A stretch of 64,000 nt of DNA from a virus, in IMG/VR virus record IMGVR_UViG_3300017963_000208, positions 43,566 to 107,565 of that record, one strand, 5' to 3'. A program made the position numbers and the translations under genes. The notes under the pieces were generated by a model. It saw nothing but the letters and a program-made list of their open reading frames with translations, searched no databases and was not told the DNA's origin. Position 1 is the stretch's first letter, and each line of letters starts with the position of its first letter. Below are positions 37,286 through 62,343 of the stretch, piece by piece.

Positions 37286-39442
37286 TTACTTAGTTTCTGA
37301 CAAAGCCTTGGCAATCTTAGGTTCAGCCACCAAGGGAACACTTAGCTTATAAGTGTTTTCCATCTTGTCTTTCATTATTTGAGCCACTTCCTGCGTATCT
37401 TCCTCCATACACTCACTTATTATCTCATCATGTATTTGCCCCAGGATGTAGGCTTTCAGACCTCTTTTTTTGAACTCCTTGTTAATGGCTATCATCGCCC
37501 GGTTAGTTATAGAGGCTGCCAAAGACTGAATAGGAAAATTTACTCCGAGATTTAGCAACTTGTTTAAAATTCTCTTGTCTGCTCTGGCGCGAGAAGTCTT
37601 TAAACGGTCAACACCATCCATTCTTCTCTTTCGTCCTGTCTCGTTAGCAATTTCTCCCTTTTTCAGGATACATCCATGACATCTAAGAACATACTCTTTT
37701 AGATTAGGGTATTTATTCCAGTAATGCTGCAATTTCTTTTGAGCTTCTTTTACATCACAGTCTAAAATCTTGGCTAGTTTCCACTGCTTCATACCATACG
37801 CAATCCCCAAACCAATCTCTTTAGCGTCTTGTCTCTTTTGGGGATGCTTCTTCTTGGCCTCATTTGCATCACATCTCAGTTCAAAAAAGTCTATGGCTAC
37901 AGTTCCATAGAAATCTAATCCCTTAACAAAAGCCTCAATAAGACGCTTCTCTCTGCTCATATGGGCAAAACATCTGGGCTCCAGTTGTGAATAGTCAGCT
38001 CCCACCAAAGCCATGTTTTTTCTGGCGATTATACCCCTTTTTATTCTTGTGTCTTCCCTGGGCAAGTTTTGGTAGTTGGGATTCTTGCAAGCAAATCGTC
38101 CCGACTCTGTACCAAACTGCATCCAATCCGGATGTATGACCCCATCTACATTCAATTCCAAAGCTGCTTTTACGTAAGTGTTCAACAACTTATTGGCCTT
38201 ACGCATCTGTACAATCTTACCCACAAAAGCATATTTGCTTTCAAATATCGCCAACACATCTTCATCTACCTGATAATTACCAGCCTCAGTTACCTTGATA
38301 GGCTTCTCTTTGAGGTGGGTAAACAAAATCTCCCCCAACTGTGGGTTACTATCTAAATTAATCAGGTATCTCTGATCCGCTTTTTTAGCCATCTGTATCC
38401 TGGCAGCATGAATTTTATTGCCTTCCAGAGCTATAAATTCCTCGTCTGTGAGCTGTCCAAGCTTCCATTTCAATAGATTACTCTCTGGATGATCTTCGAG
38501 AGTCTGTTCTATGACCTTCTTAGCAAAAGTAGGAGACCCTTTCTTGTTGTAAATAATAGGAAATCCCTCATCCACAAACATCTGTTTGAAGAGATTTCCT
38601 CCACTCTTCATGGGTGCTTTATCATTGAGTATGGCCTCTTCCATACCGTGATACATCTTAGAGTAATCTTTCTTGAGGTCGGCGTGAATCTCATCTTCAA
38701 TAGACTGGGCTTCTTGTTTCAACTCATCATGTAATTGTTGGTAGTACTCTAAATCTACTTGCATGCCTCTAGAGTGCATGGTAAGTACAATTTCCACCAG
38801 GGGCATGACTTCTTCATCATAAAAGAACTTGTATAACCCCTCTTGGTTAAGTAAGTCCTCAAATTTATAAAACAACTGAAGGGTCATATCTGCATCTGAA
38901 GCAGCATACTTACCTAGAATGATGGGATCGGCTTTGCCAAAGTCTTTCTCGTCCTTATTCCATTTACCACCATTCTTTTTCACCGACTCTTTAAGGTCAT
39001 TCTGAGGGGTATCCCACCCTTCCCCTAAATACTTGACTGCACAAGATTTCAGCTTGTGGGGCTTCTTCTCATCTAATGTGTGCTTCATCAAGATGGTATC
39101 TGCATGAAGGCGAGGAAGACAGTCTACTCCCATTGTATTCCTAAGAACCGAAATGTCAAATACACTATTGTGCATGACAATTTTTTTCTCAGGACTTTCT
39201 AGTAAGCCTATTAACTTAGCCCGGACCTCGAACAACTCCTCATCGTTCAAGCCCTGGGTTGTTATATAGAACGCTTCGCCCGCCCTCACACAGAGAGAAA
39301 TACCCAGGAGTTCGCAGGTGAAGCTATCTAAGCCGGTAGTCTCAGTATCTACCGCTATTATACCTCTAATTGGGGTAAGATAGTCAAAGACTTTTCTGCG
39401 CTTATCTTGGGTATCTGCTATATAATATTGTGAATTAATCAT
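37286..39442 (-). CDS. DNA polymerase I-type replicative polymerase (family A)
   Basis: A 718-residue family A DNA polymerase with a 3'-5' exonuclease. Exo I is VDTETTGLD (Asp32, Glu34), Exo II has Asp96, Exo III Asp183 after Tyr179. Polymerase motif A is DYSQLEPR (Asp483, Glu488), motif B has Lys541, Leu545 and Tyr549, motif C is HDE (671-673). Leu545 corresponds to position 762 of E. coli Pol I. No 5'-3' exonuclease domain is present. It should be the phage replicase, encoded with the primase-helicase (8-base overlap). Confidence 0.95.
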   Translation of the reverse strand: MINSQYYIADTQDKRRKVFDYLTPIRGIIAVDTETTGLDSFTCELLGISLCVRAGEAFYITTQGLNDEELFEVRAKLIGLLESPEKKIVMHNSVFDISVLRNTMGVDCLPRLHADTILMKHTLDEKKPHKLKSCAVKYLGEGWDTPQNDLKESVKKNGGKWNKDEKDFGKADPIILGKYAASDADMTLQLFYKFEDLLNQEGLYKFFYDEEVMPLVEIVLTMHSRGMQVDLEYYQQLHDELKQEAQSIEDEIHADLKKDYSKMYHGMEEAILNDKAPMKSGGNLFKQMFVDEGFPIIYNKKGSPTFAKKVIEQTLEDHPESNLLKWKLGQLTDEEFIALEGNKIHAARIQMAKKADQRYLINLDSNPQLGEILFTHLKEKPIKVTEAGNYQVDEDVLAIFESKYAFVGKIVQMRKANKLLNTYVKAALELNVDGVIHPDWMQFGTESGRFACKNPNYQNLPREDTRIKRGIIARKNMALVGADYSQLEPRCFAHMSREKRLIEAFVKGLDFYGTVAIDFFELRCDANEAKKKHPQKRQDAKEIGLGIAYGMKQWKLAKILDCDVKEAQKKLQHYWNKYPNLKEYVLRCHGCILKKGEIANETGRKRRMDGVDRLKTSRARADKRILNKLLNLGVNFPIQSLAASITNRAMIAINKEFKKRGLKAYILGQIHDEIISECMEEDTQEVAQIMKDKMENTYKLSVPLVAEPKIAKALSETK

Positions 39443-41423
39443 GTTCTAAGTGATGTCTCAATGCTTCTAAGGCCATTTCTTCTTCTTCTACTAAGTCCCT
39501 GATAATACCAGAGGGACCATGCCAAAATACATCCACTCTCTTACTTGGACCTAACCTGTTTTTTACCATCTTAATAGACATGGTGAAATCATGGTCGGGA
39601 TGAGTGAGTCCAAAAGGCCTCCAACAATTAATCTGTGTGGAAGCCTTCTCTTCCCAGGCCCCAGAACCTTTAGCTAGTACCTCGGCGTCTTTTCCCCCTC
39701 TAGGAGTCTGGGACAGACCCAGAATACAAACGCCTGTCTCTTTAGCTAAATTGGTTATCGCAATAGCATTTTCAGTATGCCTTGCGTATCCCTCTTTCTC
39801 TGAGTGGAGCAACTGCACATAGTCTACAATGACTAAGTGAGGCTTAGTTCCCTCCAGAGCTTCTTGAGCCTTGATCTCATCCCTAATGTTCTCCACAGAG
39901 ATTTGGGTATTGTAATCTATCAACACATTGTCGGATAGAGAATCAAATACCGCTTCCGCCTCTTCCACCAACGCCTCATTCTTTCTAGCATGGGCGATCA
40001 TAAAATCTTTACCGCTCCATTTTGGCCTGCCGTGTTCATCTCTTAATAATATAGGTGCAAATCTTTGGACTAACATCTCTTCGGCCATGTCCATGCTAAA
40101 GAATAGGGCCTTGATACCGGCTCTGCTAGCATTATCTAAAATGTTAAGCATCAAACTAGTTTTGCCTGTACCGGGCTTCCCTACAATGAGGTTGAAGGTG
40201 CCTTTAAATAGAGGCATTTCACCGTCCAAACCTTTTAAACCAGTTGGAACGATGTTACTGAAATACTCCCTGAAAAACGGTTTAGAACGTCTATAAGAAT
40301 CGGCTACAGAAACAACCCTCTTAGTACGACTCTTGCTTCTAGATAAATAACAACTATTATCACATACCTCAGATAGAATAGAATCGTTACATCCAAAATC
40401 GTAGTCATTACTGAGGGCCTGTTTAGCTATCCTCTCCAGGTCATACTCGCTCATAGGGTCCAGCTTGGCTTTCTCAGGATCAGCAGCATCCATCTTATCG
40501 AGAACGCCTCTGAGCTTACCAACGATAACTTCCAAGGGCATGCCTTGTTTCTTCTCATGGACGGCTATTCTGAGTAGTGAGCTGTCTCTGTACTGCGTCA
40601 CAGTGCCTTGGCAGAGCCTCCAGACACAAACCTTCTGTCCTCTAGGACATCGGCCTGAATCAGGCAGCCCTTCCGAGTTCATGGTAATTCCCGTGGACGC
40701 CGATTGACGAACTGCGTTTTGTATATCCTTAATGACTTTCTTGGCCAATTCGGATAACTTAGTGGTATCTGAAATAGAATCAAACTCTACCGGCACTCTC
40801 ATCTGGATGCAATACTTTTGGATTTCCTTAATAGATGAATCCCTAAGCATCTTGATGGGGAGGCTAGTTTTGAATAAGTGAACTTCATGGTTGTCAATTG
40901 TGGAGGCTTTCTGGTGTATAGACCCCACAATGCGGTACAACCTATTGTGGTTATATATAACCCTGTCAAAGCTTTCTAGCTCCTGCGCCAGACTAAGACA
41001 GAACCGCTTAATTACGTAGGGAATATTCTCGTTAAACTCATTGTCAATTCCCGAGATACCCTCTGTCTTTAGCTCTAGGGCAAACCCCTTACGTCCACTG
41101 AAAAATATTCCTACTTCAGAGTCTTTAATGTTGTACTCAGTTTTCAGCCTTTCTATGAGTTTCAAAGAGTCCTGTCTGGCTATCTCCAGGTCGTTGTTAT
41201 CAAAATCAAAAACCAACCGATCAATACCAGCCTTTCCACGGTACCCCGAAACGGTCCCTTTCTCCTTTACGTGGTCCAAGAAACTCTGGTCATAAAAGAA
41301 CAAGCTTCTATAACAATCCTCTTGGGGATCAAGGTGTTTCGGTAGGTCCGTGAGAGGAATAACGGTATTTCTCTTCTCGGCTTTCTGTGACAGTCCTTTT
41401 CTAAACTCAATAAAACGGGTCAT
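39435..41423 (-). CDS. Fused AEP-type primase and DnaB-like helicase
   Basis: A 662-residue protein. Residues 65-180 look like an archaeo-eukaryotic primase: DFD (73-75), SGRKGFAL (109-116) and RIVGSIHQK (164-172). The usual His after 'SGxxGx' is Ala115. A Cys-rich middle part has Cys259, 266, 271, 345, 354 and 358 and may hold a metal or Fe-S cluster. The C-terminal 280 residues are a DnaB-type helicase with Walker A GKPGTGKT (415-422), Walker B VIVDYVQLL and LSQTPRGG. It unwinds and primes for the polymerase. The AEP assignment is by motif order. Confidence 0.8.
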   Translation of the reverse strand: MTRFIEFRKGLSQKAEKRNTVIPLTDLPKHLDPQEDCYRSLFFYDQSFLDHVKEKGTVSGYRGKAGIDRLVFDFDNNDLEIARQDSLKLIERLKTEYNIKDSEVGIFFSGRKGFALELKTEGISGIDNEFNENIPYVIKRFCLSLAQELESFDRVIYNHNRLYRIVGSIHQKASTIDNHEVHLFKTSLPIKMLRDSSIKEIQKYCIQMRVPVEFDSISDTTKLSELAKKVIKDIQNAVRQSASTGITMNSEGLPDSGRCPRGQKVCVWRLCQGTVTQYRDSSLLRIAVHEKKQGMPLEVIVGKLRGVLDKMDAADPEKAKLDPMSEYDLERIAKQALSNDYDFGCNDSILSEVCDNSCYLSRSKSRTKRVVSVADSYRRSKPFFREYFSNIVPTGLKGLDGEMPLFKGTFNLIVGKPGTGKTSLMLNILDNASRAGIKALFFSMDMAEEMLVQRFAPILLRDEHGRPKWSGKDFMIAHARKNEALVEEAEAVFDSLSDNVLIDYNTQISVENIRDEIKAQEALEGTKPHLVIVDYVQLLHSEKEGYARHTENAIAITNLAKETGVCILGLSQTPRGGKDAEVLAKGSGAWEEKASTQINCWRPFGLTHPDHDFTMSIKMVKNRLGPSKRVDVFWHGPSGIIRDLVEEEEMALEALRHHLEHD

Positions 41424-42132: not shown

Positions 42133-42877
42133 TAAACGACACTCCATCGAAATTTTCACTTAACCCGCTCTCTGCGAATGAAGCTGTAGAATCCTCTGTT
42201 TCTGAGAAACTACTAAACCTATCAGAACCATTCCCTCCCTTGGGGGGCTCCTTAGCAGTCTTCGCCTCAGTCTTGGCCTCATTTTTGGGGGCTTCGGTCT
42301 TCGTTTTAAATCCGCCGCCACTATTACTAGGTTTCTTAAAACCTCCACTGTTAGTGCTCTTAGGCTTATTGGCTTTGAATCTAGAGTTGGAAACAGGTTC
42401 TACAGTTACGTCTGCCCCTGTGGAATCTAAAGTTCCCCTGTAAGCCTCATTACCAATAGAAAGAAGAGATAGTGACTTGCCTATAGCATCGGTGATAGCT
42501 CCTTTGATAGCATCAGCCATAGCTCCGTGGACAACAAAAGAACCTCCAGCGTGGGTTCCCGTTTCGTAGGCCACATTACCATTATCATCCATGAATTGTA
42601 GACTGACTAATGCAGTAACAGCAGTACGGGTTTTGTTTGATCCAGAAACCTCATACTCTAAAGCATCAATCTTGTAGTCATGGAGAACGTGTTTCCACTT
42701 ACCTGTACCAAAGGCTCCATTCATCGCATCAATGAGGTACTGGGACTTATAGCCTACGGGTGTAAAGCGTTGCTTCCCCGTATCGTTGCCCATTTTCTTG
42801 ATCTGAACAGCTTCTTTTCCAAAGCCTTTCAGAATCTCATTAGCTTTTTGGGCTTTCTCCGTCAAATTGAACGTCAT
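42119..42877 (-). CDS. Rad52/Sak-type single-strand annealing protein
   Basis: A 252-residue protein starting at 42877 (GAGG site in the stop-side of the upstream gene). Residues about 40-150 match the Rad52/22 pattern: LIDAMNGAFGTGKWKH, YETGTHAGGS and KGAITDAIGKSLSLLSIGNE. The C-terminal 90 residues are low-complexity Lys/Ser/Gly/Glu, as in many annealases. It anneals complementary ssDNA, in partnership with the exonuclease encoded just upstream. It forms a lambda Red-like pair. Confidence 0.75.
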   Translation of the reverse strand: MTFNLTEKAQKANEILKGFGKEAVQIKKMGNDTGKQRFTPVGYKSQYLIDAMNGAFGTGKWKHVLHDYKIDALEYEVSGSNKTRTAVTALVSLQFMDDNGNVAYETGTHAGGSFVVHGAMADAIKGAITDAIGKSLSLLSIGNEAYRGTLDSTGADVTVEPVSNSRFKANKPKSTNSGGFKKPSNSGGGFKTKTEAPKNEAKTEAKTAKEPPKGGNGSDRFSSFSETEDSTASFAESGLSENFDGVSFNDQG

Positions 42878-43979
42878 GTGTTTTTTCCTCCCTCGTCTTA
42901 GGAAAAATGTATTTATCTCTGTCATTATAGTGACATAAATGAAAATATGGGCAGAGGCCATAATCAAAACATCTGCGTAGATCCATATACCTTACGCCTT
43001 GAGTGGCCAACCTTGCCGTGCTAGCAAAACTTTTAATTCCCTGTTCTTGTTTCTCCTTACTTATTTCATCTACCATTACCTGGGTGTGTCCTTTACAATC
43101 TACGGTCCACTCTCCCCCGCACCGTTGACCTTTCTTTTCCACTGGGCAAGTACGATACCGTGAACCCTTTTTCTTTTTCTTTCCACACACAGAGCATTTA
43201 GAATCCTTCTTCATAAACTTGAGGAGAACTATAAATCCCACCAACTTCGTGTCTAAATCTTTACCGACCGCGTTCAAATAGAGCAAAAGTTGTTCAGAAA
43301 ACATGGTCTTGTCTTTGTCATAATAAGAAGCTGAGGTTTTCATATCAAAAACAACTGGTCGATCATACCCCTCAAACTCGCATATCAGGTCTATATAGCC
43401 TCCGATTCTTGCTATATTTCCTACCTTGCCTTTAATCTTATGTTGTATTGCTATGACCTTCTTGATTTTTGGTAACACCTCCAAGATAAAAGCATCCAAC
43501 ATCATTAGGCCTTTTCGTTTTAACGACAACCACGAAACTCTGTTGAACAGTTTTGTCTCATCAACGGTTAGTGGCTTCTTTCTAACCTTCTCGTCTTTGG
43601 TAACATAAGTTACCTTTGATTTGAGTTCTTTTTCCCACTGTTTTACCAACGTTTTGTCGGCTGGTTCAAGAACATCGAGGTCGTAGTCAGCCTTGGAGTA
43701 TTTCTGAGATAGGTCATCAAAATAGTTTTCCCATCCCGAGTCCTTATCTGATAAAAAGACATCTTTACAATCTCTTATACCTTCCTGTTCTTTTCCCTCT
43801 TGTTTTCTTTCGAGCAAATAACCTGCCGCAACATCCATAGCGATTCCAAAGGCTAGGGAAGCGCCAACCTCTTTAGGCTTCACTCTGGCAATATACTGCT
43901 GGTAGTGACGCTCGCCGCAATCCTTCCAAGTGGAGGCTGCTGAAAAGGACATCAAGGGTAGTTTTTTTCTATCACTCAT
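42840..43979 (-). CDS. RecB/Cas4-like PD-(D/E)XK exonuclease
   Basis: A 379-residue nuclease with FSAASTWKDC at the start, HK near 180, Asp197 (GGYIDL), Asp212 and Lys214 (VFDMKT) and Gln230 (motif QxxxY). Cys21 and C-terminal Cys (RRCFDYGLCPYFHLC) have the layout of Fe-S exonucleases. A zinc-ribbon-like insert (CSVCG ... CPVEKKGQRCGG) lies near residue 262. It degrades DNA ends and passes ssDNA to the annealase, which it overlaps by 38 bases. Confidence 0.8.
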   Translation of the reverse strand: MSDRKKLPLMSFSAASTWKDCGERHYQQYIARVKPKEVGASLAFGIAMDVAAGYLLERKQEGKEQEGIRDCKDVFLSDKDSGWENYFDDLSQKYSKADYDLDVLEPADKTLVKQWEKELKSKVTYVTKDEKVRKKPLTVDETKLFNRVSWLSLKRKGLMMLDAFILEVLPKIKKVIAIQHKIKGKVGNIARIGGYIDLICEFEGYDRPVVFDMKTSASYYDKDKTMFSEQLLLYLNAVGKDLDTKLVGFIVLLKFMKKDSKCSVCGKKKKKGSRYRTCPVEKKGQRCGGEWTVDCKGHTQVMVDEISKEKQEQGIKSFASTARLATQGVRYMDLRRCFDYGLCPYFHLCHYNDRDKYIFPKTREEKTHDVQFDGESPKS

Positions 43980-44203
43980 TTCAACAACGACTCTAAATCA
44001 GTTAGCATTTTTCGATAGGCTTCGGTTTTTGCCTTTATTTCCGGAAACTTGGTCATTTTTTGAAGAAGCTCTACCTTTAAATCCGGTGAGGATTTGCTTG
44101 TTAGCTTCATCATCTCCAAGTCTATTCGGAGTGTATCTAAAATCTTTTTGTACTCTTCGATTTTTTCTTCTATTTTTTCTTGAATCGAGATTTTTGTACT
44201 CAT
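43976..44203 (-). CDS. Coiled-coil protein overlapping the basic protein gene
   Basis: A 75-residue frame starting MSTKISIQEKIEEKIEEYKK, fully helical with heptad Ile/Leu and balanced charge. It lies inside the 3' end of the gene 43998-44582 in another frame (+1). Amino-acid composition here is more protein-like than the other frame in the shared part. It may be a separate overlapping gene or the C-terminal domain reached by frameshifting; see findings. Confidence 0.5.
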   Translation of the reverse strand: MSTKISIQEKIEEKIEEYKKILDTLRIDLEMMKLTSKSSPDLKVELLQKMTKFPEIKAKTEAYRKMLTDLESLLK

Positions 44204-44582
44204 TTGGATTCACCCATGTTCTCCAACCATTAGTACTCTCGAACAATTCCCAGTACTTGGTGATTGGTTTTGCTTTCAGAGGACCCTTGGGATTGCCTTC
44301 TCGGTCCTTGGGCTGAATAGCAGTAACAGCTATAATCTTGCCCACACATTCTTGTGGTAAGGTCTTATCTTCTGAATACTTAGTCTGTGTGAGCCTCAAG
44401 TGTCCTTGGGTTGGGTAAGTTTTACTAAAAAACTCCTGTTGAAAACCAGGATTAAGAATTACCCGCCTTTGCTTACTTTCGTCCAGCCATAGGACCTCTT
44501 CTACTTGAAAGCATCGTCTGAAAGTATCCCACTTCTTCTGTTCTGGTGTTTTTTCCTTAGTTCTTTCTCTGTTTTTGCTCAC
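43998..44582 (-). CDS. Basic protein at head of the recombination operon (up to 194 aa)
   Basis: Starts at GTG (44582) with a strong GGGAGGA site. The first about 130 residues are ordered, with 'CFQVEEVLWLDESKQRRVIL' and 'GKIIAVTAIQPKDREG'. After residue 130 the frame becomes Arg/Asn/Lys-rich and looks less natural, exactly where the coiled-coil frame begins. Its gene sits just downstream of the conserved regulatory element. The function is unknown; a basic nucleic acid-binding role is plausible. Confidence 0.6.
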   Translation of the reverse strand: MSKNRERTKEKTPEQKKWDTFRRCFQVEEVLWLDESKQRRVILNPGFQQEFFSKTYPTQGHLRLTQTKYSEDKTLPQECVGKIIAVTAIQPKDREGNPKGPLKAKPITKYWELFESTNGWRTWVNPNEYKNLDSRKNRRKNRRVQKDFRYTPNRLGDDEANKQILTGFKGRASSKNDQVSGNKGKNRSLSKNAN

Positions 44583-44586
44583 AATA

Positions 44587-44628
44587 TCCTCCCTCTACTA
44601 ATAGAGGACTACTTACCATTTGGTAAAT
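44587..44628 (-). promoter_or_regulatory. Conserved regulatory element, copy A
   Basis: On the minus strand: palindrome TTACCAAATGGTAA (44613-44626), then GTAAGTAG, 12 bases, AGAGGGAGGA. A 6-bp hairpin CCTCTA/TAGAGG (44592-44607) includes part of this. The GGTAAGTRG and AGAGGR parts have identical 12-base spacing in copies B and C. The position, just before the GTG of the recombination operon, suggests transcription or translation control. Confidence 0.55.
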
Positions 44629-44633
44629 AGTTT

Positions 44634-45062
44634 TTATTGTTTTTTCAATCTTTTTTTGAGAACCTTCATTATTTCTATAATGGGCAGATTGGGTACGATA
44701 TTCTCCTCAGAGTCCATGCCTTCAAAATAATTGTTTACTATATACCCTTCCCTTATATCTTGAATGACAGCACCTCTTATCTTACTGCCTATAATAGCTA
44801 TATTTTTGCAATTTCTTACCAAAAGACCATTGCTAACAAGGCTGCCCCCTAAATTATACCCCTTTCCTCCGACCAAGAATAAAGTTCCCTGCACATTACA
44901 GTCCTTTAATTCTACGCCGTGTCCTTCCCAAACTACCACATCTGATAAGAAGAGACATTCATTAAAAAAGGCTCTCTCACAATCTACCACAAATATGGGG
45001 GTTTTAAAAGTCTGGTTGTGGTGAACTATGCAGCTTTCTTCTACAAATGTGGTGGAACTCAT
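44634..45062 (-). CDS. Small beta-helix protein with C-terminal tag (142 aa)
   Basis: A 142-residue protein with short repeated turns (NCKNIAIIGSKIRG, NVQGTLFLVGGKG), resembling a small right-handed beta-helix. It lacks a signal peptide, so it should be cytoplasmic, unlike the fibres. It ends PIIEIMKVLKKRLKKQ, the tag motif. Function unknown. The fold assignment is from repeat periodicity only. Confidence 0.55.
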   Translation of the reverse strand: MSSTTFVEESCIVHHNQTFKTPIFVVDCERAFFNECLFLSDVVVWEGHGVELKDCNVQGTLFLVGGKGYNLGGSLVSNGLLVRNCKNIAIIGSKIRGAVIQDIREGYIVNNYFEGMDSEENIVPNLPIIEIMKVLKKRLKKQ

Positions 45063-45066
45063 CTGT

Positions 45067-45441
45067 TTACCTCTTAATGACTCTTCCGGCTAAAGATTTT
45101 ATCTTGTGCCAAATCTGGGGATTACTTTCAAAAAATCTCCGCAACTCTGTCATATCCAACTCTCGAATCTGATTCTCCAATTCCTTCCATTCATGGAATT
45201 TCTTGTGTTGGAGTTTAATCACCTTCATAGTTTTGGTTATGTCCATTTTCCAACTGGTGACAAATGCCGACGCAGTAAGTATGTAGTCTCTGCTGTCAGG
45301 GTAGCAGTAAAGAGCGCAATAACTATTCCTAAATTTACTTCCCCGATGAGACAATACAAAGTACGGAGCGGAACTAGTAAGAGTTCTACCACTACGATAC
45401 GTTCTGGTCACATAACATACTGAAAAAATAGGAGGTTTCAT
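45067..45441 (-). CDS. Unknown protein with internal tag motif (124 aa)
   Basis: Residues 1-64 are strand-rich with several Cys and aromatic residues; MDITKTMKVIKLQHKK (about residues 66-81) matches the tag, but here it is followed by a helical region and a basic end. A tag inside the chain indicates it can act as a linker helix. Unknown function. Confidence 0.55.
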   Translation of the reverse strand: MKPPIFSVCYVTRTYRSGRTLTSSAPYFVLSHRGSKFRNSYCALYCYPDSRDYILTASAFVTSWKMDITKTMKVIKLQHKKFHEWKELENQIRELDMTELRRFFESNPQIWHKIKSLAGRVIKR

Positions 45442-45731
45442 TTATGTTTCAAAAACTCGTTGGTTTCTTCCTTAGTTACTTGTTTTTGTAAATAAGCGCC
45501 CAATCCCCCCACTTGTTGAGGATCAAGCACAACCTCGGCAAAACACGCCTCTCCCTTGGTCAAAACCTTCCAAGCTAGTTTGATACGTTTCCACAGAGAA
45601 GTGTCTTTTTGTGAAGCTCCAATAGATATAAAGAAATCCGTACCATCCACAATAAGGTCTAAGTTATGTTCTGTCATCCCACAAGTACAGGGCAGCCTAT
45701 AATGATCTTCTCTTACTTTAAACATCTTCAT
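45438..45731 (-). CDS. Unknown small protein with CTCG motif (97 aa)
   Basis: Has LPCTCGMTEHNLDLIVDG near residue 13, then helices with LAWKVLTKGEACFAEVVL. The two Cys may bind metal. It overlaps the HAD-like gene by 14 bases. No family is recognised. Confidence 0.55.
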   Translation of the reverse strand: MKMFKVREDHYRLPCTCGMTEHNLDLIVDGTDFFISIGASQKDTSLWKRIKLAWKVLTKGEACFAEVVLDPQQVGGLGAYLQKQVTKEETNEFLKHK

Positions 45732-46143
45732 CCTCTCTTACGTAAAAGATGCCTCCAACCTTCTCTACCCACCCTTCTGGAAGCGGTAATTGGCGTCTGG
45801 GAGACCAGGTTGCCATAGAAAGGTCATCAAAGACCACTGAGGGCTTCTCAACCACATAATCAACTATTTTCTCTATTTTAAGGGCTTTTACTACCGATTG
45901 TGCCCAGTCCCAACCTCCCTGACTCCATACGATGATTATAGCACCTTTCTTCTTGTGCTGTTTTAGCTCATCTATGGCTGCTTGATTGACCGCCAGGGTA
46001 GACTCAGAGCTAAAGCCTCCATAAAGATTATTCTCGAACTTAATGGTAACTTTAGTTCCCGTATAATCCTCGGGAGCACGGTACAGTACCAAAGTGTCAT
46101 CCACATCACAAAAAAGAGTATAACGTCCCTTAACTACTTTCAT
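45718..46143 (-). CDS. HAD-superfamily phosphatase-like protein
   Basis: The start at 46143 (MKVVKGRYTLFCDVDDTLV) is chosen because it places the strand of motif I at the N-terminus and overlaps the upstream stop by 14 bases. Asp13 and Asp15 form the DxD of motif I, VWSQGGWDWA near residue 75 is motif II, and VVFDDLS near residue 106 supplies motif IV acids. Substrate unknown. A 3'-end phosphatase role in RNA repair is possible, as in phage polynucleotide kinase-phosphatases, but there is no kinase domain. Confidence 0.65.
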   Translation of the reverse strand: MKVVKGRYTLFCDVDDTLVLYRAPEDYTGTKVTIKFENNLYGGFSSESTLAVNQAAIDELKQHKKKGAIIIVWSQGGWDWAQSVVKALKIEKIVDYVVEKPSVVFDDLSMATWSPRRQLPLPEGWVEKVGGIFYVREDEDV

Positions 46144-46813
46144 ATAAATTGACCTCAATACATTTGTGGGCTACGGTATAGCTTTCATCCACAATAGCTG
46201 CGTTGGCGTAAGTTATACCGTCTTTTATCTTAATTCCCCGGTCACAATGAATATGACCGCAAACATGGAGTTGGGGTTTGACTATTTCAATTCTCTTGGC
46301 CAGCATCTCACACCCCGTATATCTACAACCGCGTTTTTTGTTAGGACGATTGTCTGCTATATTCCAACTATTCCATACCCTGTCCAGAATCTTATGGGGT
46401 GGACCATGGGTAAGAAGAATATCTGTGTCCTCGGGAATGAGAACCCAGTGTTTGTTAATTTCTTCTCCCCGAATACGGTTGAACGCCCAGTTACAAAACC
46501 AGGGCTGCACCGGAGAACCCCAAACTTTAAATCCTTCTACCGTTGCTCCAGAATCGTTTAAATAAATAATACCCCTATCCTTACACATTTGTTCCATTAG
46601 GGCCGGGTCTTTCTCTCCTAGCCAATCATGGTTTCCACAGATAAGAACCTTGTGTTTGTGGGGAAGAGCTGCCAACCAGTCAAGAAAGGGTTGCACCTCG
46701 GCTACGCGGCCCATCATAGAAAAATCCCCCGCATGGAGGATAACATCCCCTGGAGGGACAATCATTTGCTCATGTCGGCTATGAGTATCGGACATACAAA
46801 TGAACTTAGTCAT
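46130..46813 (-). CDS. Calcineurin-like metallophosphoesterase B
   Basis: The start at 46813 (MTKFICMSDTHSRH) is the one with an 8-base overlap to the upstream gene; the long upstream extension is a shadow. Motifs: DTH (9-11), HAGDFSMMG, GNHDW, LLTHGPPH and GHIH. It is a compact phosphodiesterase or phosphatase of the YfcE-like type. Substrate unknown. Confidence 0.8.
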   Translation of the reverse strand: MTKFICMSDTHSRHEQMIVPPGDVILHAGDFSMMGRVAEVQPFLDWLAALPHKHKVLICGNHDWLGEKDPALMEQMCKDRGIIYLNDSGATVEGFKVWGSPVQPWFCNWAFNRIRGEEINKHWVLIPEDTDILLTHGPPHKILDRVWNSWNIADNRPNKKRGCRYTGCEMLAKRIEIVKPQLHVCGHIHCDRGIKIKDGITYANAAIVDESYTVAHKCIEVNLYESS

Positions 46814-47033
46814 TGGTCTTTTCTTCCTTAGTTTCTTCTGGAGTAGGGAGAATATCAGAATTATCTCTGCCCGTAATCTCATTTAAAGTTTGAACTATGA
46901 TCCCTCTTCCAGCATTGGTGATATGAGAGGCACCACAGCGCAGTAATCCACGCAACCTTCCCTTCACAACATCCAGATTTTGTTGGAGAGTTTCTACCTG
47001 TTTCTTCATCTCTTGGTTTATTGCCTTATTCAT
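46806..47033 (-). CDS. Small helical protein, unknown (75 aa)
   Basis: Start at 47033 (MNKAINQEMKK) with GGAG 6 bases upstream. It has a coiled-coil start and a small domain with GLLRCGASHITNAGRG; the acidic end is Thr/Glu-rich. No family is recognised. Confidence 0.55.
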   Translation of the reverse strand: MNKAINQEMKKQVETLQQNLDVVKGRLRGLLRCGASHITNAGRGIIVQTLNEITGRDNSDILPTPEETKEEKTND

Positions 47034-47295
47034 ATACATCTCCATTACTCTGTATTTTACTGTTCTCATAAGGAGCCACTACTCTACGGTAAAACTCCAG
47101 CTTGGCTCCCTCTAACGCTCCCATAATATCGTTAATTTTTTGGTAATCTAGAGGGGCTTTACTATGACAAGCATAATGCTCAATTATCCGAGTTACAAGA
47201 TAGTTTAGCTCCCCCGGATTCCCCGGAGATTTGCGCCACAAGGTATCAACTATTTCGTCTAACCATTTTCTACGTTCTTTTTTTATGTATGGCAT
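47026..47295 (-). CDS. Conserved phage protein, DUF6899-like
   Basis: An 89-residue protein matching a widespread phage family by pattern: MPYIKKERRKWLDEI at the start, GELNYLVTRII, YQKINDIMGALEGAKLEFYR, and a 'NGDVY' end. Function is unknown. It overlaps the upstream gene by 13 bases. Confidence 0.75.
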   Translation of the reverse strand: MPYIKKERRKWLDEIVDTLWRKSPGNPGELNYLVTRIIEHYACHSKAPLDYQKINDIMGALEGAKLEFYRRVVAPYENSKIQSNGDVYE

Positions 47296-47645
47296 TTTTT
47301 ATTCCTCTTCATATAGTGAAGTGTATCGGGCTGCAAAGTGCCCTCTTTCACAAAATTGTTGATAATGTCCTTCGATATATAAAATAGGTCGTCACTTTCT
47401 GATATGTAGGTCTCTAGTACCTGTTGTACGTGAGAATCTCCCCCTCCTCTAGGGAAGTTTAAAAAAGGCAAGCCCTTAGCACCACCCACCCCTGTGTTAA
47501 AAATTTCTGGTGAGATTATATGTGCATACCCTTGCGGACAGGCCCACCTAAAAACACTGGTAGATACTCCATAGAACTTTGTGGTTTCGGCGCATATCTC
47601 AACAGAACACCCACAAGTGGCTTTATACCTCACCCTTCTTGCCAA
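47283..47645 (-). CDS. Small zinc-binding-type protein with C-terminal tag (120 aa)
   Basis: Has CGCSVEIC near residue 11 and a later 'FRWACPQGY', consistent with a metal site. It ends DTLHYMKRNKKCHT, the tag motif. The middle has a Gly-rich loop. Function unknown. Confidence 0.65.
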   Translation of the reverse strand: MARRVRYKATCGCSVEICAETTKFYGVSTSVFRWACPQGYAHIISPEIFNTGVGGAKGLPFLNFPRGGGDSHVQQVLETYISESDDLFYISKDIINNFVKEGTLQPDTLHYMKRNKKCHT

Positions 47646-48346
47646 TATCCCTCCAACATACTCATCTGCAATTTTTCAATCTTTGCTTGGTCTGCTCCAT
47701 ATTGAAGGTCTGACTTTACGTAGGCTTCATCAATCAAATGCTCTAGCCGTTCTGCTTCAGCCAGGACTTTAGCCAAATCCCACTCGCCGTTACGAATGGC
47801 TTTCAGTTGCTTCCTATGAGGGCAGGGGTAAATAAGCTGCTTTGCTACCATTATGTCCAGCCCTTCATAAAGGAGCCTCATCAGGTGCATAGCAAATTTT
47901 GTATCGTAGCCGTGCTTTTCGATGAGCGCAACTCGTTTACCCTCTGCCTCTTTCGTGAGGATTTTCCTCTTCTGCGAGTGAGCATACCCCCTGAACGTGT
48001 GATATGATTTCTTAGAAAGGAATAACTCCCTATTATCAATGATCTTTTGACCATATTCGTTCTTGAAAATAACATTTTTGTCTGGAGTATACAACAGACT
48101 CAGGATATTGGGATTATTATTCATGGCCAAGTGAATGTACTTAGGCAAAGTGTAACACGTATAGTCGGTATCGTCAGATTTTACCTGAACCTGGTCACAC
48201 CTGTGAAGCCCATAAACGTATTCCTTTGGCGGTACAAAAATACCCTGATAGTCCCTATCGGATTCTGGTGTTTCGGTACCATAGAGGTAAGAACCAGTTT
48301 CGACTTTCAAAATAAGATTGCTTTCTGCCAGGTCTTGTTCTTTCAT
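47630..48346 (-). CDS. RlaP-like predicted nucleotidyltransferase
   Basis: A 238-residue protein with the Pol-beta fold signature GSYLYGTETPESDRDYQGIF (residues 18-37): Gly18-Ser19 and metal-binding Asp30 and Asp32. This is the pattern of PF10127 (RlaP, RNA repair-linked) proteins. The rest is helical. It probably transfers a nucleotide to RNA or another acceptor. It forms a two-gene unit with the macro domain protein (4-base overlap). Confidence 0.75.
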   Translation of the reverse strand: MKEQDLAESNLILKVETGSYLYGTETPESDRDYQGIFVPPKEYVYGLHRCDQVQVKSDDTDYTCYTLPKYIHLAMNNNPNILSLLYTPDKNVIFKNEYGQKIIDNRELFLSKKSYHTFRGYAHSQKRKILTKEAEGKRVALIEKHGYDTKFAMHLMRLLYEGLDIMVAKQLIYPCPHRKQLKAIRNGEWDLAKVLAEAERLEHLIDEAYVKSDLQYGADQAKIEKLQMSMLEGYWQEG

Positions 48347-48777
48347 TTACCTATCACCCAAATTCTATCATCTAACAGACATTCTAAAATAGGTTTAACT
48401 TCTGTTTTCCAATCTAGCCCGCCATTTCCACACCCCGGTTTAGGCAGCACCACCGTTTCTATATTGGTCTGGTCCATAAGCAACATCAAATCTTTAGCAG
48501 ACTTTTCTATTAAGCATAAATCTGCTTTTTCCCACCAATTATGCTTGACTGGAAAAGTAATTATATCAAAGCACTGATATAAGGTGACCCAATTGCCACT
48601 TTTCTTTAAATTTTCTCCTAACAATTTGGGAAATTCTGGAAATCTTTGGGTGGCTTCATAAGCGCAGCCTCGACCCATAACCGCGAGACCATTCTTTTTT
48701 ACCGTGCCGTTGGTTGTTATGGCCACTGTAAAACCGTTGTCTAAAAATTCCCACAGATCACCTTTGATTTCTTTCAT
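48343..48777 (-). CDS. Macro domain protein (ADP-ribose-binding)
   Basis: A 144-residue macro domain: MKEIKGDLWEF at the start, MGRGCAYEATQRFP near residue 34, and VLPKPGCGNGGLDW near residue 110, the phosphate-binding loop. Family members bind ADP-ribose and can remove it from protein or RNA ends, or cut ADP-ribose-1''-phosphate. Together with the adjoining nucleotidyltransferase it suggests RNA end processing or reversal of host ADP-ribosylation. Confidence 0.8.
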   Translation of the reverse strand: MKEIKGDLWEFLDNGFTVAITTNGTVKKNGLAVMGRGCAYEATQRFPEFPKLLGENLKKSGNWVTLYQCFDIITFPVKHNWWEKADLCLIEKSAKDLMLLMDQTNIETVVLPKPGCGNGGLDWKTEVKPILECLLDDRIWVIGK

Positions 48778-48896
48778 AGACTTCCCGTAGCTAACATAAA
48801 AAGATATAATAGAAGAGCGATGGTGCCCACATAGACACTCCCGGCCATAAGTACCGCACCAGTTAAAACCAAAAATTCTATAAGCTTATCTTTCAT
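48774..48896 (-). CDS. Small membrane protein (40 aa)
   Basis: Encoded as MKDKLIEFLVLTGAVLMAGS and a hydrophobic rest; one or two membrane segments. Stop overlaps the macro gene ATG by 4 bases, and its own ATG overlaps the upstream small gene stop by 4, so the three are coupled. Function unknown. Confidence 0.55.
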   Translation of the reverse strand: MKDKLIEFLVLTGAVLMAGSVYVGTIALLLYLFMLATGSL

Positions 48897-49012
48897 TTGT
48901 ATTTCCACCTGTCGTGAATAATAAGAACAATTATGCCCACCATATTAACTAATAACACTAGTAGAGGTAAGGTTAGTAAAACTAATAAATATGCTTTTAT
49001 TAAAGTAATCAT
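48893..49012 (-). CDS. Small membrane protein (39 aa)
   Basis: Starts MITLIKAYLLVLLTLPLLVL; a single long hydrophobic stretch with a basic end (DRWKYK). It is the first gene after the regulatory gap at 49013-49091. Function unknown. Confidence 0.5.
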   Translation of the reverse strand: MITLIKAYLLVLLTLPLLVLLVNMVGIIVLIIHDRWKYK

Positions 49013-49048
49013 AAGTAATGAATATTATAAACTTTCTCTACCCAAATT

Positions 49049-49090
49049 AAAAAGTGATCCTCTTTTGAGAACTTTCCACTTACCAAATCG
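49049..49090 (-). promoter_or_regulatory. Conserved regulatory element, copy C
   Basis: On the minus strand: GATTTGGTAAGTGG, 12 bases, AGAGGATCAC. It keeps the 12-base spacing of copies A and B, but the left half of the palindrome is degenerate. It precedes the operon of two small membrane proteins, macro domain and nucleotidyltransferase. Confidence 0.45.
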
Positions 49091-49091
49091 T

Positions 49092-50738
49092 TTATTCTCC
49101 ACAACTTGAGCCTTTCGTGATCTCGCACACATCACTTGATTCCATAAATACTTCTCCCGTATGCTTTAAAGCCGTGTGGAACTTCACCGGAGTAAGAGGT
49201 TGTCCTGTTCTAGCCCCATCTGGATAGGCTGTCAGTCCTCTTAAATGGGGTAAGTACTTGATTAACATATTACCAAAACCTAACACCGTATCATCATTAT
49301 TAAATTCTGATCCCCATGCGGGTAAGTTTATGGTAGAGCTTATGCCATGGTCCACATACTTTTGTACCCACTCTTGGAATTGTACTCTTCGTTCTAGATC
49401 GTTAGACAAAGAAAAAGCATCTTCTATATCATCTGGAGATATGCCCTGGTTTACTAATTTGTGCGCCGTGGGATCTATCACATACTGGTAATGCCAGGTC
49501 TTGTGTTTCAGATACCGACGCTTGTATGAAGCACAAAAAATAGGTTCTATACCCGAAGTTGTTTCTCCCAAGATAGAAATAGAGCCCGTAGGAGCTATAG
49601 CCCTAGTTTTTATTGATTGGCTCAAATCCCACTTGTCTGCATATTTATGAGCAAAGTTAGTACTTTCTTTGTAAATTTCCAAATACTCTTCTAATTCCTC
49701 ATCTATACCATAAGGTTTTCCATGTGATAATAGCCACTCATGGATACCCATTAAGCCCAAACCAAGCCTTCTATTCTTAGTTCGTATAATATCCACTTTA
49801 GAATAGGGTACATCACTATATACTGTACCCGCCAATAAAAAAGCTGTAGAACACTCTACAACTTCGCGCATTTCTTCTAGGGTGGATATTTTTGCTAAAT
49901 TGATACTACCCAAGTTACATATATCTGAATCATCCTCTCCGGTCACTTCCGTACAAGCATTTCTCAAATCCTCTTTAGAATTTTCTCCGGTATTTATGGA
50001 AAAACCAGGTTCTCCTGTTTTCAACATTCTTTTTATAGTAGCCCAGTATACTGAGTGGGCATGAGCGTGTAATATGTGTTTTTCATCGTGGAAAGCTCTA
50101 AAAAACTCATCATCTAAGACTACAGAAATGTTTGTCCCATCTAGGGGTGCTGGAAAACTAAAATTCTTTTGTTTTAATTCTCGTACTTCCTTAGACCAGT
50201 CTTTAATATGTATAAATTTATGAATATCAGGGTGTTTCCAGCTTAATCCAGACCAAATAGCAGCACGACGGCTACCTCCCTGCATAATTCCTCTGGCGCT
50301 CTCATTCAACATCTGCATTAAACTTATGGGACCTGATGCAGACCCTCCCGTTTTTCTTATAGGTTTTCCTTCTGCGCGTATCGCACTATATTCGACCCCT
50401 ATTCCCGCCCCAGTCATCAACGCCAAAGCTGAGTGTTTTAGCAATGTAGCCCAACCCTCTCTACTATCGTCAGCCCGGAGTAACAAGCAGTTTTGTGTTT
50501 GGTGGTAAGGATTTCCAGAGGCATATAGATATCTGCCCCCCGGTATGAATTTTCGTTGGCGAATGAGTTTGCGTACATTTTTAACCAACTCCTTATCCGC
50601 GTCCACTGACCTCATAACATGGGTAGAGACTCTGCGGGCAATTTCATCCCAAGTTTCTTTACGCCCCGTTCTCTTAGTATGAGCATACTTTTGCTCCATC
50701 ACCGTTTCAGCAAAGGTTGACATTTTATTTTTGCTCAC
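49092..50738 (-). CDS. nrdJ: Class II (adenosylcobalamin-dependent) ribonucleotide reductase
   Basis: A protein of about 548 residues. The start at GTG 50738 has AGAGG 5 bases before it; a GTG 6 bases upstream is also possible. Residue numbers here count from that upstream GTG. Catalytic motif NACTE (Asn262, Cys264, Glu266), redox Cys86 and Cys276 (CNLGSINL) and a C-terminal Cys pair (Cys540, Cys548) are visible; PTGSISILGETTSGIEP follows. Motif order fits class II NrdJ. No small subunit gene is nearby, in line with class II. It reduces ribonucleotides for phage DNA; cobalamin would come from the host. Confidence 0.85.
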   Translation of the reverse strand: MSKNKMSTFAETVMEQKYAHTKRTGRKETWDEIARRVSTHVMRSVDADKELVKNVRKLIRQRKFIPGGRYLYASGNPYHQTQNCLLLRADDSREGWATLLKHSALALMTGAGIGVEYSAIRAEGKPIRKTGGSASGPISLMQMLNESARGIMQGGSRRAAIWSGLSWKHPDIHKFIHIKDWSKEVRELKQKNFSFPAPLDGTNISVVLDDEFFRAFHDEKHILHAHAHSVYWATIKRMLKTGEPGFSINTGENSKEDLRNACTEVTGEDDSDICNLGSINLAKISTLEEMREVVECSTAFLLAGTVYSDVPYSKVDIIRTKNRRLGLGLMGIHEWLLSHGKPYGIDEELEEYLEIYKESTNFAHKYADKWDLSQSIKTRAIAPTGSISILGETTSGIEPIFCASYKRRYLKHKTWHYQYVIDPTAHKLVNQGISPDDIEDAFSLSNDLERRVQFQEWVQKYVDHGISSTINLPAWGSEFNNDDTVLGFGNMLIKYLPHLRGLTAYPDGARTGQPLTPVKFHTALKHTGEVFMESSDVCEITKGSSCGE

Positions 50739-50746
50739 AGCCACCT

Positions 50747-50932
50747 CTAGTTAAGAAAATCACTACCTTCTGGGTCATCATCTGAATACGGGTCAGCCCA
50801 ATTGCTTGTATCTAGTTCTTGATTTCGATACTCTTCTTCAATTTGTTCTTCTAGGATAGTCTTTGCTTCGTCGAGAGTCTCTACAGTCTCCAACATCTCC
50901 AGAATATCCTCCAGCAGCTCTGCTCTAGTCAT
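50747..50932 (-). CDS. Small acidic protein upstream of the reductase (61 aa)
   Basis: Starts MTRAELLEDILEMLETVETL; a helical first half and an Asp/Glu-rich tail. It is the first gene after regulatory copy B, and its stop is 2 bases before the first possible start of the reductase. It may regulate or stabilise that enzyme; unproven. Confidence 0.55.
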   Translation of the reverse strand: MTRAELLEDILEMLETVETLDEAKTILEEQIEEEYRNQELDTSNWADPYSDDDPEGSDFLN

Positions 50933-50959
50933 GGGTTTTATGTCTCCTTATAATTGTTA

Positions 50960-51008
50960 TGGCCAATCTCCTCCTCTACTATTGGCCGCCTACTTACCAT
51001 TTGGTAAA
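50960..51008 (-). promoter_or_regulatory. Conserved regulatory element, copy B
   Basis: On the minus strand: palindrome TTACCAAATGGTAA (50994-51007), GTAAGTAG, 12 bases, AGAGGAGGAG. A 7-bp stem GGCCAAT/ATTGGCC (50961-50967 / 50981-50987) encloses the purine-rich part. It lies between the HTH regulator gene and the ribonucleotide reductase operon, so it likely controls the latter. Confidence 0.55.
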
Positions 51009-51025
51009 TAAAAACTATAACTTTT

Positions 51026-51685
51026 TTACTTTTTAAATTTCCCTATTAATTCTCTGGCCTTACGTAACCTATACCAAACTGCGTGCTTGATTATACCTCT
51101 TTTTTTAGCCATTTGCTCTATGCTTTGATACTCCATGTAGTACTCTTGCAGGGTTTCTGAGTAGAGCTTGGGAATGTATTGACCAAAGGCCTTGTACAAA
51201 TCCCGATATTCCTTGTAGTGCCTAAGAATATCTAAAGCCCCTTTACGTTTACCGTAGCCATGGACAATGTGATAGGCACGCCCCTTACTTATCCCATATT
51301 TTTTAGCAATTTCTTTGTAGGACTTGCCGTTTTGAAAATGGTCCAGTATTATATCTTTATTCCTCTGTGGTATAGCTCCCCACGGTATATCCTTGAGGTG
51401 TAACTTTTGTTTACGAGTATGTGTTTCCTCTTTCGGAGGGCTATAGTCATAAATGTCGTGGTACTTTACGGTCTTGGGCGACGTGCTGTGGCTCCTACCT
51501 AGATAGCTCTGCATTTGCCGGCAAAGGGAGGTACACTGATCTTTAATCTCACACACCATACAGGGGGTTACCAGGTCGCAAATAGAGTCTGCGTGAGAAC
51601 AAGGCAGTCGCTTAGGACAGCTTGAACACACGTCCACTCTTTTAATATTCTTAAAATCCTGTATTTCTTTAGCCGATTTTACCAC
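51026..51685 (-). CDS. Cys-rich regulator with two HTH domains, sigma region 4-like
   Basis: A 219-residue protein starting at GTG. Cysteines 20, 23, 29, 36, 42, 45, 51 and 55 suggest two metal or Fe-S sites. An HTH at about residues 108-142 (SYKEIAKKYGISKGRAYHIV) and a second at about 174-212 (SIEQMAKKRGIIKHAVWYRL) resemble sigma factor region 4 or similar regulators. It could switch transcription of phage operons, and the gene lies next to regulatory copy B. The sigma assignment is tentative. Confidence 0.6.
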   Translation of the reverse strand: MVKSAKEIQDFKNIKRVDVCSSCPKRLPCSHADSICDLVTPCMVCEIKDQCTSLCRQMQSYLGRSHSTSPKTVKYHDIYDYSPPKEETHTRKQKLHLKDIPWGAIPQRNKDIILDHFQNGKSYKEIAKKYGISKGRAYHIVHGYGKRKGALDILRHYKEYRDLYKAFGQYIPKLYSETLQEYYMEYQSIEQMAKKRGIIKHAVWYRLRKARELIGKFKK

Positions 51686-61733: not shown

Positions 61734-61941
61734 TATCCTTCCCTACCTGCATGTACTCTATTATATTTAAGTACCTACGCCCCTCACATTGAGGGCACAC
61801 TCTTGTTTCAATATAATTAACCGTAATGGGGCCTAGAGCTTGATGCAGATAGTCCTCTCCGCAAATAACATTTTCTACTGGAATTTGTACGTCTATTGTA
61901 CCTGAACCGTTACAAAATTCGCATTTATATAGCTCGGCCAT
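61720..61941 (-). CDS. DnaJ-type zinc-finger protein with C-terminal tag (73 aa)
   Basis: CEFCNGSG near residue 7 and CPQCEGRR near residue 49 are the two halves of a DnaJ-like zinc finger. It ends LNIIEYMQVGKDNGEV, a tag variant (Gln for Lys). The fold differs from the SH3-like proteins. Unknown function. Confidence 0.65.
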   Translation of the reverse strand: MAELYKCEFCNGSGTIDVQIPVENVICGEDYLHQALGPITVNYIETRVCPQCEGRRYLNIIEYMQVGKDNGEV

Positions 61942-62138
61942 TACTTAAAAATCACTTTCAGGCCAACTATGGCCCCAATAATAAGAACAAAAAGGGCTAG
62001 AGGAATCCACAGGGGGCATAGGACCCACCACCAAGACCAGGTAATCTTACCCAGTAACTTGAGCGTGATGAACACCAAAGCCAATAGCCCTGGAAATCCA
62101 ATGTTCAATTTAGCTTCTGCTTTTCCTGACTGACTCAT
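61941..62138 (-). CDS. Membrane protein, Fragile-X-F/TMEM185-like (65 aa)
   Basis: Two hydrophobic segments with FPGLLALVFITLKLLGKITW and WSWWWVLCPLWIPL, typical of a short phage membrane family (transmembrane Fragile-X-F type). GGGAGG precedes the ATG. Its stop overlaps the next ATG. Function unknown. Confidence 0.7.
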   Translation of the reverse strand: MSQSGKAEAKLNIGFPGLLALVFITLKLLGKITWSWWWVLCPLWIPLALFVLIIGAIVGLKVIFK

Positions 62139-62343
62139 TGTTGCCTCCCTACTATTATCCTAACGTCTATACATCCGTAAACACTAACTATCTAATCTAT
62201 GGAATTGCTTTAACAATTCTAACTATACTCCGAAAGGTACAAGCAATTCTTTATTAGCACTACCATATCTAGGTTATTGTTTTATACTACATAATGCTAG
62301 TTATAATTGCTATAGCACTATATAGTATTATATAATAAGAATA
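62139..62343 (-). promoter_or_regulatory. Intergenic region with AT-rich tracts and inverted repeats
   Basis: The largest gap on this strand (205 bases). The half facing 62343 is a run of TATA-like tracts. The other half has GAATTGCTT (62202-62210) paired with AAGCAATTC (62241-62249), plus an internal CAATTC (62214-62219). It is a candidate promoter and operator for the operon starting at 62138. No tRNA or ORF is visible, and no strong -35/-10 pair could be fixed. Confidence 0.4.
62202..62249. repeat. Nested inverted repeat GAATTGCTT / AAGCAATTC
   Basis: A perfect 9-bp inverted repeat with a 30-base spacer. A shorter GAATTG/CAATTC pair (62202-62207 / 62214-62219) shares the left arm, so two alternative hairpins are possible. 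It may be an operator or a switch-like leader. Confidence 0.5.

Follow-up and report, generated by a model that had tools for sequence, protein, structure and literature searches.

The window analysed here is a stretch of 64,000 nucleotides, positions 43566-107565 of a 107,565-base virus record (107.6 kb). Gene calls were mechanical, and by our own gene chain non-coding DNA accounts for 3.8% of the record. A short two-block pattern, GGTAAGTRG-N12-AGAGGR, had been proposed as a regulatory unit in this stretch, and it does match exactly three times, on the minus strand only and each time with 12 bases between the blocks: at 44591-44617 (C), 49058-49084 (B) and 50972-50998 (A). The features that surround these matches, together with those found later in the text, are listed below in window coordinates unless stated otherwise.

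37286-39442, DNA polymerase A; 39435-41423, primase-helicase; 42840-43979, PD-(D/E)XK exonuclease: the genes that come after 43998-44582
43998-44582, minus strand: first gene after copy C, 194 aa, no family
44591-44641, minus strand: copy C, leader of 43998-44582, with the AT-rich tract AACAATAAAAAC, the box TATTTACCAAATGGTAAGTA at 44629-44610, the -10-like TATTAG at 44603-44598 and AGAGGG at 44596-44591
49058-49084, minus strand: reported copy B, which fits the first pattern and has no left half-box and no -10
49092-50744, minus strand: ribonucleotide reductase (RNR), second gene after copy A
50747-50932, minus strand: small ORF of 61 aa, first gene after copy A
50972-51022, minus strand: copy A, leader of the small ORF and RNR, with the box TATTTACCAAATGGTAAGTA at 51010-50991, a poor -10 (CAATAG) at 50984-50979 and AGAGGA at 50977-50972
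51026-51685, minus strand: candidate reader protein, with a cysteine-rich N-terminus and then two HTH segments
62149-62195 (window position 62169), minus strand: candidate copy H in a 205-base non-coding gap, with TGTTTACGGATGTATAGACG at 62183-62164, GATAAT at 62159-62154 and then AGTAGGGAGG
Record positions 10,697 (copy D), 12,312 (copy E) and 15,040 (copy F), plus strand, outside the window

For a pattern that was picked after all three copies had been seen, 0.01 matches are expected per shuffled window, and three matches occurred in none of 100 shuffles. The search of the full record that the original prediction had proposed returned the same three matches in 107.6 kb, all in the window, and no others. 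None was present in 34 related viral records, and when up to three mismatches were allowed there was no excess (9 found versus 6.4 expected). The perfect palindrome claimed for the first block proved to be an inverted repeat with perfect arms, TTACCA-AA-TGGTAA, which only A and C carry among the three matches and which, owing to its 2-base centre, is no strict palindrome. No direct repeat on that strand of the contig is longer than the 21-mer TATTTACCAAATGGTAAGTAG that these two copies have in common. Among the viral_contigs, the half-palindrome pattern was found in 23 stretches, several of them recognisably one shared coding site, and GGTAAGTAG-N9-AGTAGAGG in one stretch only (L110), at a TTGACA-17-TATAAT promoter; the named phages that were searched gave weak partial matches only.

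All three matches had been placed in operon leaders, and for A and C this holds. Copy C occupies a 51-base gap before 43998-44582, which has a GTG start at 44582, and copy A lies inside the 93 bases that separate the HTH gene from the small ORF before RNR. The leader position of B was not confirmed: it stands directly after the RNR stop codon and before a 38-codon membrane-protein-like ORF starting at 49011, and not immediately before the macro/RlaP genes. By our own count on the alignment, B agrees with 14 of the 21 positions at which A and C are identical within the 27-base core, and random genomes score 14-17 on the A/C core consensus. With its score in the noise and both the left half-box and the -10 absent, B was rejected as a real copy and is probably a chance match or a decayed copy.

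The consensus of A and C was then run over the whole record, and a plus-strand site near 12,326 matched at 17 of 21 positions, a level that alone is at the edge of chance. This site carries TTTAACTATGTATAAGTA, which is present three times, in D, E and F. As read from the sequence, A and C and at least four copies outside the window are one control element of about 50 bases that precedes gene groups of a bacterial virus. The proposed unit is thus real for A and C, although the pattern first noted was too small, taking in no more than the element's right half; comparison with the remainder of the contig and with the sister contigs resolved the window-level pattern into the larger one. In A, C, D, E and F the layout consists of an AT-rich tract, the box TATTTA-N8-TAAGTA, 6-7 bases, a TATAAT-like hexamer in most copies, and AGAGG or AGGGAG; the left half-box of F reads TGTTTA. 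TAAGTA is invariant across these five copies and copy I, which is found on a related contig. The box occurs in two forms with the same outer halves. The first has a CCAAATGG centre (A, C and I) and precedes the RNR, replication and post-RtcB genes; the second has a ACTATGTA centre (D, E and F) and precedes an HNH gene, a small-gene cluster and the packaging genes. In addition, CAATAAAAACTATTTA is common to C and D. All five copies in the record fall within its small non-coding share, in leaders on either strand. They score 42.8-53.0 compared with at most 20.6 in 20 random genomes, values that are inflated as the copies themselves trained the matrix; the independent support for the element is copy I and the copies in the sister species. 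Between the HNH gene and E lies about 1.1 kb of AT-rich, apparently non-coding DNA (L004:11240-12350), a possible origin region.

Related contigs were reached through a capsid protein search; RNR, exonuclease, helicase and polymerase queries yielded no useful relatives. Contig G002 is 99.99% identical to the record over 14.3 kb and extends 10.5 kb beyond its left end. Since G002 (L206, L207) runs on past base 1, the record is incomplete, and the extra part contains an RtcB-like ORF and copy I. Like D, E and F, copy I sits outside the window; it reads TATTTACCAAATGGTAAGTA-cgagcct-TACAAT-AGGAG and is located between the putative RtcB ORF, as read from its sequence, and the next gene. The 20-bp box is identical in A, C and I, and the next 6-7 bases are wholly different (GTCCTC, GGCGGC and CGAGCCT), which argues that the box is under constraint and not the product of recent block copying. 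In the sister-species contigs, G003 and G006, F is retained with few changes. The E of G003 retains TATGTATAAGTACGCTACTAT-AGTAGAGG except for one change, and about 6 changes are found in the 23 bases just upstream, which have diverged more than any other stretch in the vicinity. Neither D nor its HNH gene is present in the sister species. G007-G009 are more distantly related; in these, the orthologues of the gene that follows C adjoin their neighbours directly without such a leader, and in G007 and G008 the small ORF directly follows the HTH gene, again without one. One relative has a canonical TTGACT-17-TATAAT-AGAGGGG of the same layout close to an ATG. In G009, TATTATAGAGGG precedes a tRNA gene, a place in which a ribosome site would serve no purpose.

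Candidate copy H is the best genome match outside the training set, with a score that taken alone is at background level. It lies 31 bases before the start of 61941-62138, compared with 32-38 for C, D and E, and is possibly a further copy of the element.

We favour, with somewhat better than even confidence, the reading that the element represents a class of phage-specific promoters that is recognised as DNA. The data show a repeated element, its layout, its restriction to leaders, its two versions and its persistence in a sister species; its promoter nature, and with it the position of the start, the factor that binds and the timing, is what we infer. The box of about 20 bp (TATTTA-N8-TAAGTA) would replace a normal -35, with its centre near -28 if the hexamer is the -10. 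A phage or phage-recruited factor would probably bind the box, host-type RNA polymerase would contact the TATAAT-like hexamer 6-7 bp beyond it, and the transcript would start at or just after AGAGG. The two versions of the 8-bp centre might each have a factor of their own or might differ in the timing that they impose. The hexamer at the -10 place, which falls within the N12 of the first pattern, is TATAAT in D, TATAAG in E, TATTAT in F, TACAAT in I and TATTAG in C, all at a fixed position, whereas that of A is poor and B has none. Among all positions, and with each rank taken as the best of several offsets, the sigma-70 score places D in the top 0.008%, F in the top 0.16%, H in the top 0.18%, E in the top 0.28%, A in the top 0.75% and C in the top 0.98%. 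The -35 is poor, with 4/6 TTGACA matches at 16-18 bp in most copies, and the -35-like TTAACT is not kept in the sister's E, where it has become TCAATT. A poor, unkept -35 combined with a box near -30 and a -10-like hexamer is consistent with a promoter whose -35 is replaced in function by a bound factor. A role as ribosome site does not fully account for the AGAGG, which is misplaced for the gene in A and F; in G009, moreover, TATTATAGAGGG precedes a tRNA gene. The poor hexamer of A and the change to TCAATT count against the promoter reading. So does the position of the -10 in C, D and H: a start 7 bases past it would leave little of the Shine-Dalgarno sequence in the transcript and give near-leaderless mRNAs, although the transcripts of these copies may start further upstream.

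In the T4 middle promoters, a MotA box near -30 takes the place of the -35 and is combined with a sigma-70 -10; the MotA consensus is (a/t)(a/t)(a/t)TGCTTtA, 12 +/- 1 bp before the -10 (PMC2988021). The element resembles this class in having a phage-specific box near -30 for the -35, followed by a TATAAT-like -10, and in preceding nucleotide-metabolism and replication genes. There are also differences. The first is the box itself, which is unrelated to the MotA consensus. The second is the distance from the box to the -10, which is 6-7 bp here rather than 12 bp. Furthermore, there are two box forms and AGAGG follows directly after the -10. The box sequence and the spacing rule out a MotA-dependent middle promoter. 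The MotA domain PF09114 had no match in the virus's own genome or its relatives, a search in which the control genomes gave none either. Canonical sigma-70 promoters share the TATAAT-like -10 and the AT-rich upstream tract, but the element differs from them in its poor -35 and in the invariant TAAGTA inside the spacer.

The protein encoded at 51026-51685, just upstream of copy A, is a reasonable candidate reader of the box. Its first HTH matches sigma-70 region 4, and it is the one transcription-factor-like match among the 25 families listed, of 42 that matched, for 105 smaller proteins, so that there may be others. The structure model is confident only from about residue 95, and the structure matches are weak and mostly to sigma factors and UPF0122. 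The link is only a lead, since three relatives keep the protein without the box at the matching sites. A bolder version of the promoter reading, which we regard as unlikely, would have one frame (TATTTA-N8-TAAGTA, -10, AGAGG) with exchangeable 8-bp centres that assign a factor or stage to each block, read by this cysteine-rich, sigma-region-4-like protein, which would displace host reading of the -35. If the element is a promoter class, sequence alone would reveal how an uncultured phage group organises part of its transcription, with blocks carrying one of two box forms, and would point to a testable candidate phage transcription factor.

Of the three functions that had been offered for the pattern, promoter and operator are strongly backed by D, E, F and I, whereas a leader structure has lost support as its hairpin is not kept. 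According to the leader reading, transcription would start upstream of the box, from TATAAT/TATAGT/GATAGT/AATAAA-like hexamers 23 bases before TAAGTA, and the 5' leader RNA would form hairpin P1 and then P2, with AGAGG as the ribosome site, thereby controlling stability or translation. Several features of individual copies agree with this: C folds far better than its shuffles (z -4.2), A, C and I all have a strong P1, the upstream hexamers TATAAT, TATAGT and GATAGT are found in the same register in E, A and H, respectively, and in C, D, E and H the AGAGG stands at a suitable position to act as a Shine-Dalgarno sequence. However, P1 has an energy close to zero in E, in F and in the two sister copies, covariation is no better than in shuffles, and in the sister's E one P1 pair is disrupted and the upstream TATAAT is lost, with TAAGTA retained; moreover, A and F have retained AGAGG although it does not serve there as the ribosome site of the gene. 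Folding of P1 in H was not significant. Since neither E and F nor the sister retain the A/C hairpin, we consider such a leader unlikely, and folding, covariation and the sister species all stand against RNA structure as the defining feature. In the window, Rfam gave no match above the gathering score and no relevant weak match near the elements, and the idea of CsrA acting on GGA loops found no CsrA gene in the virus's own genome or three relatives. A scan for double-hairpin leaders returned A, C, one unrelated leader in G008 and chance sites; the G008 leader, at oriented position 17750 (L173), has two hairpins and a ribosome site, and its sequence is unrelated to A/C.

Rather unlikely, in our view, is an operator, in which a phage or host repressor would sit on the box over an ordinary sigma-70 promoter and the CCAAATGG form would be the dyad TTACCA-AA-TGGTAA of a dimeric HTH protein. 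The dyad symmetry of A, C and I and the overlap of the box with the -35 to spacer region speak for it, but the form in D-F has little symmetry, no separate repressor gene appears among the families listed for the 105 smaller phage proteins, and a promoter with so poor a -35 seems to need help and not blocking. The 18-mer TTTACCAAATGGTAAGTA occurs in a similar intergenic site in three Oceanospirillum-group genomes (L212, L214 and L224), which indicates that the sequence can be a regulatory site, and the dyad may be a natural regulator site in those genomes. Overall, the 18-mer has 16 single matches in bacterial genomes, about the chance number by our own estimate.

It is improbable, although compatible with the promoter reading and not exclusive of it, that the element is a mobile regulatory cassette, a short repeat that spreads with the genes it precedes and helps the shuffling of modules, as has been suggested for PeSL cassettes. 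PeSL mobile regulatory cassettes of T4-type phages were reportedly described by Arbiol in 2010 and Comeau in 2014. A PeSL cassette is a terminator stem-loop together with an early promoter. In one account, PeSL cassettes are short repeated promoter/stem-loop units in intergenic sites, tied to variable gene content (PMC4503421). The element is likewise a short repeat in intergenic sites, and the gene content around it varies: the relatives have neither A nor C at the matching sites, where the downstream genes follow directly, and D is missing from the sister species along with its HNH gene. The RNR after A is closer to the RNRs of unrelated phages (60-69% identity) than to the RNR-like gene that occupies this place in G007 and G008 (21-34%, in short stretches), which suggests a gene swap at 49092-50744. 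In contrast to PeSL cassettes, A and C lack a terminator-like stem with a T run, and the stem-loop of the element is not common to all copies. Only the box and AGAGG are alike, not the flanks or the spacer, with no sign of recent block copying, and neither E nor F has changed its location in the sister. Chance likeness of Shine-Dalgarno and AT-rich leader sequence, which applies to B and fits H on score alone, is very improbable as a general account and is refuted for A, C, D, E, F and I, as five to six copies with 18-20 identical bases score far above random genomes.

The distant relative G009 carries a 25-base repeat of its own, TTTCGTTATAAATACTATAATAATC, at 9149 and 18452 (L174 and L179). 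One copy spans the end of the HTH orthologue, at the site matching A and just before a tRNA gene, and the other lies shortly before an ATG.
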